32,968 nt of DNA from Desulfobacterales bacterium (GTDB taxonomy: Bacteria > Desulfobacterota > Desulfobacteria > Desulfobacterales > UBA11574), in the NCBI GenBank assembly GCA_030145345.1, contig JAQYVT010000025.1:1-32968 (forward strand). The letters run 5' to 3'. Position numbers and translations under genes: made by a program. The notes beneath the pieces were generated by a model. The model was not told the origin of the DNA and ran no database searches. It saw nothing but the letters and a program-made list of their open reading frames with translations. Below, piece after piece: positions 1,339 to 26,238 of the stretch (position 1 is its first letter; each line of letters begins with the position of its first letter).

Positions 1339-1539
1339 CTAAATTACTTTGACATTTACGGCGGAAGGCCCTTTCGCTCCCTGCTCGATATCAAAGGAAA
1401 CCCGATCACCTTCATTCAGAGACTTGAAACCGGCTCCATCGATGCCTGAATGATGAACGAACACATCCGGCCCGTCTTCTTGCTCAATAAAACCGTAACC
1501 CTTTTTTTCGCTAAACCATTTTACGATCCCATTAGCCAT
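1339..1539 (-). CDS. Cold-shock domain protein (CspA family)
   Basis: This 66-residue single cold-shock domain protein binds single-stranded RNA/DNA and acts as an RNA chaperone. RNP1 is visible as KGYGFIEQ near residues 14-21 and RNP2 as VFVHHSGI near 28-35. N-terminal [16 protein letters not shown] is the family signature. The open frame extends 12 codons upstream, but the ATG at 1539 has a good GGAGAG ribosome binding site and matches the family N-terminus (MANGIVKWF). A promoter is predicted about 120-150 bp upstream (1661-1689), giving a long 5' leader as in many csp mRNAs. It is monocistronic and convergent with the hydrolase. Whether it is cold-induced or constitutive cannot be told. 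Confidence 0.95.
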
Positions 1540-1660
1540 CGTGAAACTCTCCTTTCCAAACAATAATGGTTTCAAACTTCAGGCTGCCACTTTTGACAAA
1601 TGGATGTTCCCTTCAGAACGAAACCTGCCCGCCAACAATTGCGAGCCTTCATTGATTGGT

Positions 1661-1689: not shown

Positions 1690-2273
1690 GTGATTGATGA
1701 GATCGATTCTGTTAAATCCCGGGTTTTGTATTGGCATTTGGATTTTTTGGATCATAATTTCTATCTGATTGCTTAAAACTCGCTGAAATCACCCATTGCA
1801 TTCTGTGTTTGTTAGGGGGCGTATAAATTTGACATGGGTCACCCATTGTTTCTGAATTTATGTCTCAAAACCTGGTTCCAATTACACTGCATGGTATGTG
1901 AAGGAACACGGGGGGCAGCGAAGGAAAAATCATGGAAGCGATCGGAAGGACGAAGCGCCTTGGCCGTTCAGAAATCAATCGATGTATTTCAGAATAAAAG
2001 GAATATTTTATTGATGGTATATCATGGATTATTGTGAGAGATGGGCGTTAAAACAGACGATGAGCTCGGATTTCCTACCGTTCCAGCAGGTGAGAGATCC
2101 GCGCTCATCGAAAATTGATAGTTTCTATGATGCCCGCGGGCTTAATGAAAAATGAACGAAAACGGGTTTTAACGCCTTAGCGTGACATCATTTTGACCCT
2201 TTTAACAAAAGGCGTTCATCTCCTCAGAAATCGGTGGAGAATGCGCTCGCGGTTGCAGCTCAGATTGACATTT
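1690..2273. other. Non-coding region between cold-shock gene and CNBD gene
   Basis: No supported gene is present; a 67-codon open frame at 1834-2037 has no ribosome binding site and no family resemblance. The region holds a direct repeat TCACCCATTG (1789-1798 and 1839-1848, exactly 50 bp apart). It also holds the nested inverted-repeat structure at 2043-2177 (own entry) and a small hairpin at about 2199-2213 (CCTTTT, AAAAGG). Confidence 0.6.
2043..2177. other. Nested inverted-repeat structure, candidate small RNA or mobile miniature element
   Basis: The outer arms GGCGTTAAAAC (2044-2054) and GTTTTAACGCC (2166-2176) are perfect complements of each other. Inside is a second stem, CGATGAGC-t-CGGAT (2058-2071) with ATCCG-c-GCTCATCG (2097-2110): 13 base pairs with one 1x1 mismatch. 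The palindrome GCCCGCGGGC lies at 2132-2141. Thus about 135 bp can fold into a multi-helix structure on either strand. There is no open reading frame of note in it. It could be a non-coding RNA or a miniature inverted-repeat element; no target-site duplication was seen. Confidence 0.4.
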
Positions 2274-2762
2274 TCATACAACGGCGTCGGATTTTTGAAT
2301 CTGTTCCGTTCCCGAAGAAGGGGAAATTCTCGCTCGAGAAGATGCTGTGAGCATATTATAGCTCCAAAGCAAACGGCTTCCGATGGTTCCTGCAAAGCGT
2401 TTAAAGAATATGAGCCCGTTGACCGGGTCTTTATCCAGAATCGAATGTACCTTGTTCTTGTCAAATTTTTGAAGTATGGACTCTTCCAAACATTCTCCCG
2501 ATGCAGAATAGACGTCCCGATCAATGAGACTGGACCATCCGAAAGCCTCGCCGGCATGATCGACGGTGTACGTCACCCCCCCTGCGTCACCAATGCTCAG
2601 TTTGACACGTCCTTTGATTAAAATATAAAAGTAAGTCGCAGGATCTCCCTTGTGAAAAATAAAATGTCCTATTTTATAGGATTCTTTTTCAGCGATATCC
2701 ATCAGTTCCTTTACGAAATCCCGTTTCAAACCCCAAAAAAGATCTGCCTGCTGGAAATACAT
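2274..2762 (-). CDS. Stand-alone cyclic-nucleotide-binding-fold protein (Crp/Fnr-type sensor domain without HTH)
   Basis: This 162-residue protein has a single cyclic-nucleotide-binding beta-roll over about residues 5-120: IFHKGDPATYFYILIKGRVKL matches the usual start of the fold (G-D-x-x-x-x-x-Y-I-L-x-x-G-x-V). The phosphate-binding cassette position reads GEAFGWSSLIDRDVYSAS, with no R-T/S-A pair, so cAMP binding in the classic way is doubtful. A Crp-type DNA-binding helix-turn-helix would follow at about residue 140 but is absent. The protein ends in a polar tail. The ATG at 2762 has a strong AGGAGGG site. It is isolated and divergent from the tetR operon. It may act as a ligand- or protein-interaction sensor; its partner is unknown. 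Confidence 0.75.
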   Translation of the reverse strand: MYFQQADLFWGLKRDFVKELMDIAEKESYKIGHFIFHKGDPATYFYILIKGRVKLSIGDAGGVTYTVDHAGEAFGWSSLIDRDVYSASGECLEESILQKFDKNKVHSILDKDPVNGLIFFKRFAGTIGSRLLWSYNMLTASSRARISPSSGTEQIQKSDAVV

Positions 2763-2887
2763 AGCTCCCTCCTTTCGCTCCGGGCCACCACGAACCCGAT
2801 GACCAGAGACGGCTTGATACCGAAACCGTCCTCACGGAGTCATACGTCTATTTTCAAGATCGACCTTTTTGATTGGTTGAGATGATC

Positions 2888-2926
2888 TTGCTCAAAACAG
2901 AACCTGTACGGTCCTGTTTTGAGCAA
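2888..2926. repeat. Long perfect palindrome upstream of the CNBD gene
   Basis: The arms TTGCTCAAAACAG (2888-2900) and CTGTTTTGAGCAA (2914-2926) are perfect 13-bp complements. Pairing can continue past one mismatch (ACC with GGT) to a 5-nt loop. Neither strand has a following T-run, so it is not a typical terminator. It sits 126 bp upstream of the CNBD start codon. It may be an operator, a 5' leader hairpin or a repeat. Confidence 0.55.
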
Positions 2927-3316
2927 AATCAGCAGATTTTGAGGTATTTCCTCATGGAAACCGCCTTAATGGAATTTGCTCAATATGGGAGTGTTAATAC
3001 ACTCCCGAGTAATGGGTTGAATTGACGGATCGATACCCGTTTGAATTCGGGGAAAAAAAGTAATCCTAAATGCGGCCGGCAGAAAACCATGTTTCACGAG
3101 ATGCGTTGATGCAGAGCAGATGTCGAATATTTTAAAATATTTTCATATTCAGGAAAATTTGTCCATAGGGCGAACGCCTTATTTTTATAGGGGAACCCCC
3201 CTGTAATATAGGAAGTTTATCCTGCTTGGCAGTTAAAATGTCTTTCCAATCCAATGGGACCTTTGGGTCATGATTTCGAGCCGGGCGCAAAAATCCGACT
3301 GCGGTCGGTTTTTTTG
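2927..3316. other. Non-coding region upstream of the efflux operon
   Basis: No supported gene is seen. A 63-codon minus-strand frame at 3132-3323 overlaps the operon promoter and has no ribosome binding site or recognisable family. The stretch is AT-rich (for example 3124-3160). It ends in the palindrome CCGACTGCGGTCGG (3295-3308), which is followed by seven T. Confidence 0.55.
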
Positions 3317-3359
3317 TTGACAAAAGCCGCCCCCGTGATTAAATTTCCGACTTCGGTCG
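3295..3359 (+). promoter_or_regulatory. Promoter of tetR-MFP-RND operon with twin palindromes (candidate TetR operators)
   Basis: The -35 box TTGACA (3317-3322) and -10 box TAAATT (3340-3345) are separated by 17 bp, with a predicted start near 3352. Two related palindromes flank it. One is CCGAC-TGCG-GTCGG at 3295-3308, followed by seven T so it also looks like a terminator. The other is CCGAC-TTCG-GTCGA at 3347-3360, on the transcription start. Paired related palindromes around the promoter of a tetR-led operon suggest autorepression. This is an inference; the first palindrome alone could be a terminator. Confidence 0.5.
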
Positions 3360-3381
3360 ACTTTCACAGAAAGGATAAATT

Positions 3382-23777: not shown

Positions 23778-23840
23778 GATATGTGGTAGCTCAAAAAAAT
23801 AATGAGTAAAGAATCATTGTCCATAGAACGATTAAGTGTG

Positions 23841-23947
23841 AAGTGACTAAAGTGATCTAAAATGCCTAAAGTTCCGGAGTCGCTTTGCTCCGGTTATTTT
23901 ATATATAATTGGCAGAATTCCTTAACTTTAGTTCACTTTAGTCACTT
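23841..23947. repeat. 107-bp inverted-repeat element upstream of nth
   Basis: The left arm AAGTGACTAAAGTGATCTAAA (23841-23861) matches the reverse complement of 23927-23947 at 20 of 21 positions. The arms are built of degenerate GTGACTAAA words. An inner hairpin, CCGGAG (23874-23879) with CTCCGG (23888-23893), is followed by TTATTTT. It lies between divergent genes, so it is not a terminator for either. It is a likely member of a dispersed palindromic repeat family. Confidence 0.65.
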
Positions 23948-24060
23948 GGCATTTTTTCTCGGTAGAGCCGAACAACTCTGCCCCCGGCGATGCGGAACAG
24001 GCAAGACCCATAGGACCAGGTTTTAATGATCAAATAAAAAAAATCTATAAAGGATCCCCA

Positions 24061-26073: not shown

Positions 26074-26097
26074 AAAAACCGGGTGCTTTGCACCCGG
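26074..26097 (-). terminator. Intrinsic terminator downstream of the hybrid kinase
   Basis: On the minus strand CCGGGTGC-AAA-GCACCCGG (26079-26097) is a perfect eight-pair stem with a three-base loop, followed by five T. It lies about 140 bp beyond the kinase stop codon and 44 bp before the HD-GYP start codon, so it would end kinase transcription. Confidence 0.7.
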
Positions 26098-26136
26098 CAG
26101 CAAATGCAACGATTAAAACACTAACGTGCTTTTGCC

Positions 26137-26182
26137 TTTTCGGCCTATGGCCGAAAATTCAAGCCACCCGTTTTACGGGTGG
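26137..26182. repeat. Two adjacent perfect hairpins in the kinase 3' region
   Basis: TTTTCGGCC-TAT-GGCCGAAAA (26137-26157) and CCACCCGT-TTT-ACGGGTGG (26164-26182) are perfect stems six bases apart. With the terminator at 26074-26097 they form a three-hairpin cluster of about 110 bp containing no gene. Such clusters occur at ends of IS200/IS605-type elements and in structured RNAs; neither is shown here. Confidence 0.55.
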
Positions 26183-26238
26183 TCGTTGACTCGGGTTTTG
26201 CATGCCCCGAAGATGTGCCGGTGCTTTCAAATTGCACA

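Follow-up and report, generated by a model that had tools for sequence, protein, structure and literature searches.

Does the nested inverted-repeat structure at positions 2043-2177 form a single element, and if so, of what kind? The window, by which we mean the whole stretch of 32,968 nucleotides analyzed here, is contig C69 of genome G000. A sequence-only reading had described perfect outer arms, an inner stem and a GC palindrome within a gene-free 135 bp, and had proposed either a structured small RNA or a miniature mobile element with terminal inverted repeats. All of these components are present. The perfect 11-bp arms lie at 2044-2054 (GGCGTTAAAAC) and 2166-2176 (GTTTTAACGCC), the palindrome GCCCGCGGGC lies at 2132-2141, and no open reading frame of 60 aa or more falls within 2043-2177. 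The inner stem (2058-2079 opposite 2089-2110) is 82% complementary as DNA; as RNA, with U.G pairs, it has 20 pairs, interrupted by two 1x1 mismatches, around a 9-nt loop.

We compared the fold of the region with shuffled sequence. The plus strand of 2030-2190 folds at -56.8 kcal/mol (z -4.40) and beats 200 of 200 shuffles, none of which equalled it. The minus strand reaches -47.1 kcal/mol (z -3.22), a value equalled by 2 of 200 shuffles. Pairing well above that of neighboring gaps had also been claimed, and this was not borne out: among the nine gaps long enough for 135-nt folds, the hairpin's own gap included, two fold more strongly. The strongest 135-nt plus-strand folds were -58.8 in gap 2763-3381 and -56.1 in gap 26094-26238, compared to -52.9 here. 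No Rfam family was found in the window at gathering score, and a search of 1780-2300 at E ≤ 10 returned two matches only, both far under their gathering scores. A tRNA search of the window found none. A pattern search of viral contigs gave one match (L143), with about 20 bases in common and no matching hairpin by eye, which was taken as chance.

Other inverted repeats were noted in the window. At 2883-2931, a strong hairpin (22-nt arms 91% complementary, 5-nt spacer, z -3.5) sits between the divergent cyclic-nucleotide-binding and TetR-type genes and is possibly an operator or an RNA hairpin. At 29-158, a perfect 14-bp inverted repeat (GGAATAATGGAGTG and CACTCCATTATTCC, spacer of about 102 nt) precedes the gene at 305, and a perfect 15-bp inverted repeat with a spacer of about 77 nt lies at 23841-23947, in gap 23778-24060.

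To place the structure among related genomes, we searched 60 genomes (its own and relatives) and then 24 genomes of the family (its own included). The segment was found in three other species of the genus, represented by genomes G001 (contig C479), G002 (C435) and G003 (C69), the last of which has a contig that ends inside the hairpin. The shared sequence includes the stem-loop at 2058-2110, which we refer to as module 1, and its left flank at 1994-2057, where differing sites number 7 of 64 in G001, 9 of 64 in G002 and 6 of 63 in G003. On the right side, G001 and G002 retain synteny between the hairpin and the gene for a cyclic nucleotide-binding domain protein (2274-2762, minus strand), with 90-91% identity at the DNA level. 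On the left side the neighbors are different: an aldehyde dehydrogenase gene in the relatives, identified by a Pfam match for the G003 gene, and a cold-shock protein gene (1339-1575, minus strand) in the window, to which nothing at that place in G001 or G002 is homologous. Homology with the relatives stops at window position 1994; in a DNA search, a 561-bp query that included the start of the aldehyde dehydrogenase gene matched G000 at 1994-2064 only. The synteny break at 1993/1994 is compatible with a real rearrangement or with an assembly join.

These comparisons bear directly on the proposed mobile element. A 135-bp miniature element (MITE) with GGCGTTAAAAC as its terminal inverted repeats would account for perfect 11-bp arms around a noncoding interior, and the structure is likewise short, noncoding and bounded by inverted arms. 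It differs from such elements in lacking both a second copy and conserved ends. A 241-bp query found no second copy bounded by the same arms in its own genome at E ≤ 0.001; at E ≤ 0.01, the sole further match covered the right module alone. The left arm pairs fully with 2166-2176 only in the window. The predicted pairing probability of the outer arms falls from about 1.0 there to about 0.03 in G001, and G002 has lost the right arm to a deletion. Moreover, the relatives' homology runs unbroken across the left arm, out to 1994. With one genomic copy, unconserved arms and conserved sequence through its left end, a MITE with 11-bp ends was rejected, and we regard it as extremely improbable. What survives of a repeated element is the right-hand part only, and its boundaries differ from the claimed arms. 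An integron attC site was also considered and discarded, as the core-like ends stand in the wrong order.

By shuffling, the outer arms are near chance. Whole-window shuffles (n = 20) gave a mean of 1.75 perfect 11-mer inverted-repeat hits at distances up to 200 nt, and the window itself has 14 overlapping hits at 5 separate places, the outer arms included. When this gap alone was shuffled (n = 2000), 4.7% of the sequences held a perfect 11-mer inverted repeat. The G001 arms carry two changes per side. Since 9 of the 11 pairs can still be written in that genome, and one of them is kept by a double change from G-C to T-A, the outer helix is not entirely random. The left arm lies outside module 1, and the right arm lies within a second module (module 2, about 2123-2198). 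Given the near-absence of predicted arm pairing in G001 and the loss of the right arm from G002, the nested appearance is peculiar to this genome, and the arms probably represent coincidental pairing of the two modules in G000.

The components originally observed are thus real, reading them as one unit is unsupported, and each module belongs to a known kind. The feature is mostly ordinary: two unrelated things adjoin. In line with the observed modularity, conservation, extra copies and failure of the outer arms, we consider it probable that the nested structure is a composite, with the conserved stem-loop of module 1 and a decayed copy of a REP-type repeat in module 2 side by side, joined by coincidental outer arms.

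We then considered the conservation of module 1. Because its contig ends inside the hairpin, G003 was omitted from the pair counts. In the three full sequences, 59 of 60 pair cells are kept on the plus strand versus 53 of 60 on the minus strand, and U.G pairs occupy 6 cells on the plus strand and none on the minus strand. The check for covariation revealed one compensatory pair, an A-U to C-G double change in the G002 hairpin; the score is not significant, as 158 of 500 shuffles reach the observed value, and it is weak because only three full sequences of module 1 exist. The apex (2067-2101, 35 nt) is more conserved than the flanks, with 2 differences in 70 sites versus 22 in 178 (Fisher p 0.03); the neighboring gene, as a reference, differs at 11 of 65 (G001) and 8 of 63 (G002) of its fourfold sites. 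Using model R1, we detected the hairpin in no other of 291 sampled genomes of the order, a search whose listings include G000 and G003 of the genus and not G001 or G002. An apex pattern scan of genome contigs matched only the two known contigs. As neither R1 nor the apex pattern found anything beyond the genus, module 1 is a locally conserved stem-loop of narrow range.

What could such a stem-loop do? Its position suggests an intrinsic (Rho-independent) terminator of the minus-strand cyclic-nucleotide-binding gene, in which an RNA hairpin would form and UCUGUUUU would free the polymerase ahead of the next gene. The hairpin lies about 163 nt past the gene end and, on that gene's strand, is followed as in known terminators by TCTGTTTT (window and G001), with TCTGTTTA in G002 and TCTTTTTT in G003. 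It was kept with this gene while the gene on the other side changed, and visual inspection showed hairpin-plus-T terminators behind homologous or paralogous genes at several other loci (L122, L124, L125 and L126). However, the d'Aubenton-Carafa score is -19 to -35 on the minus strand in all three sequences, compared to +30 and +41 for two clear terminators. A pattern scan did not list the hairpin, pairing on the minus strand is poorer, and the apex is its most conserved part. Intrinsic terminators combine a GC-rich hairpin with a strong U-tract; all three sequences fall short of this (nT 2.1 to 2.3, with d in the range given above). Module 1 differs from them in its long stem, 9-nt loop, weak U-tract, negative score and conserved apex. 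The negative score led us to discard a strong terminator as its identity, and intrinsic termination in general appears possible, if rather unlikely.

A small regulatory RNA on the plus strand, of which module 1 would be the whole or a part, fits other features of the hairpin: the confinement of U.G pairs to that strand, the nearly invariant 35-nt apex and the plus-strand fold (z -4.4). Yet on the plus strand no sigma-70-like promoter was listed immediately upstream and no U-tract follows the hairpin, no Rfam family matches, and the range is one genus. We consider this identity unlikely. The structured small RNA proposed initially is possible for the inner hairpin only, where genus conservation, better plus-strand pairing and one compensatory change speak for it, and not for the whole nested unit. 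More specifically, module 1 might be a new genus-specific RNA motif of the plus strand whose apex, GGATTTCC[T/C]ACC[G/A]TTCCAGCAGGTGAGAGATCC, would bind a protein or pair with a target; this seems quite improbable. Module 1 is a genus-specific conserved stem-loop that has stayed beside the cyclic-nucleotide-binding gene, on its 3′ side, and most likely it acts in cis as an RNA stem-loop of this intergenic region. It may provide 3′-end protection or weak termination of minus-strand transcripts, or it may form a short plus-strand RNA. Since the terminator score is negative in three of three sequences, we leave its role between minus-strand termination or protection and a plus-strand small RNA.

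Module 2 belongs to a dispersed repeat family, first seen as secondary BLAST matches to 2160-2196 in its own and related genomes. Better-kept copies consist of a hairpin, GT(A/C)GATTCCCACGGGC-loop-GCCCGTGGCA, followed after about 15 to 20 nt by ACGGGTTTNNAANNCCTNACNGCGAGATCATTTTGA. The window copy, on the plus strand, is diverged and consists of a REP-type hairpin remnant and a conserved 3′ tract running from ACGGGTTTNNAANNCC to ATCATTTTGA. We built model R3 from seven copies, with the window copy left out. R3 scores the window copy at 37.2 bits, with a per-genome E of 9.3e-5, and the orthologous G001 copy at 42.3 bits. At E ≤ 0.01, R3 finds the repeat in 9 of 24 family genomes at no fewer than 21 places, at least 6 of them in G000. 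These counts could be too low, since the number of first-look candidates scored per genome was limited (150 for R3 and 18 in an earlier search of the 291 order genomes with model R2). Weak R2 matches in distant genomes (about 17 to 23 bits) were treated as chance and left unused; one match among them, in G151 (25.3 bits), was examined further.

One copy has the same flanks in all four genomes of the genus (G000 C22, G001 C123, G002 C404 and G003 C40). The G002 C404 copy is upstream of a PCMT gene, and G000 has a like protein. Another copy (G000 C113) is ahead of an AMP-binding enzyme gene, and a copy in G004 is flanked by a phage-integrase-type gene and a dnaX-type gene. The better-kept relatives of module 2 thus appear to occupy intergenic regions. 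In the seven copies of R3, 82.3% of cells are paired, a value reached by 14 of 500 shuffles, and 9 of 500 shuffles equal the covariation score; because the seven sequences are related, the pair test is weak evidence for an RNA. No Rfam family was found on the repeat in nine loci. The six rows returned were tRNA, tmRNA and chance-level matches. Among the last of these, a microRNA-family match (E 1.7) in L008 overlaps the hairpin.

In G004, the repeat stands directly after a tRNA-/tmRNA-like 3′ end at two places (C272, L059 640-810; C115, L023 1-170). That 3′ end, GGTTCGAATCCC..TCCGCCA, was identified by eye and gives a weak tmRNA match. In C272, the tRNA-/tmRNA-like end and the repeat follow a phage-integrase-type gene, and the arrangement looks like an integration site.

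The hairpin of the family resembles repetitive extragenic palindromes (REPs), whose GTAG-tagged class bears GTAG (or a GTMG-type tetranucleotide) at one foot of a palindromic stem-loop of 20-40 nt. PMC3733652 describes GTAG REPs, including family 14 in D. alkenivorans, which we take to be Desulfatibacillum alkenivorans, a member of the Desulfobacterales. In the relatives of module 2, a GTAG head likewise accompanies a short-looped GC stem (GTAGATTCCCACGGGCTTACGCCCGTGGCACTT); these copies are dispersed and, where we looked, lie between genes. A GTAG-headed hairpin pattern with up to 3 mismatches was found at nine places in three of the four genus genomes, five of them in G000, and the reversed control gave none. 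GTAG or GTCG heads many aligned related copies. The palindromic stem-loop is clear in C22, C113, G001 C123 and G003 C27. In contrast to typical GTAG REPs, the window copy has lost most of its hairpin: it keeps only the 10-bp palindrome at 2132-2141, which alignments place as the putative remnant of the 5′ arm, the 3′ arm seems to be missing, and the nearest head is ATAG. In G001 the head is GTAG, but the stem is degraded. With its own hairpin so strongly degraded, the REP descent of the window copy rests mainly on the 3′ tract. Two further features set the family apart. Several module 2 copies have in common a conserved tract on the 3′ side of the hairpin; according to PMC3733652, a small number of REP families are regularly associated with similar flanking sequence. 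Copy number here is low (by R3, at least 6 places in its own genome), whereas more than 100 copies are usual for known REPs according to PMC2817692.

Y1 transposase genes flanked by REPs are described in PMC2817692. We fetched 30 Y1 loci (L083-L112), three of which hold the hairpin: L089 in G008, and L090 and L112 on one G011 contig. In G008, hairpins stand at both ends of the Y1_Tnp gene, one of them just after it, and in G011 a hairpin is beside the Y1 match. G008 and G011 belong to genera other than that of the window, and in them the hairpin abuts IS200-like Y1 transposase matches. The Y1 locus examined in the window's own genome (L098) does not contain the repeat's hairpin. We infer that the ancestor of module 2 was a REP mobilized by a Y1 transposase; module 2 would be a decayed member of a dispersed REP-type family in which a GTAG-headed palindrome is joined to a conserved tract.

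A related arrangement was seen elsewhere. In G008 C218 (L089 1388-1939), two GC hairpins on the same strand, GTAGAT..GTGGCACTT and ACCCACGGG..GTGGTCCTC, enclose the Y1 transposase gene. Both hairpins recur in the same order, 35 nt apart and without a transposase, in G001 C340 (L080 1502-1596) and G018 C442 (L069 1502-1596). Going by their layout, these pairs would look like a small deletion derivative of the transposon.

The practical value of these results is mostly in annotation. They indicate that chance pairing between two independent elements can give a single genome a striking nested fold, and they add a small family of REP type, marked by a conserved tail, in uncultured relatives of the Desulfobacterales.
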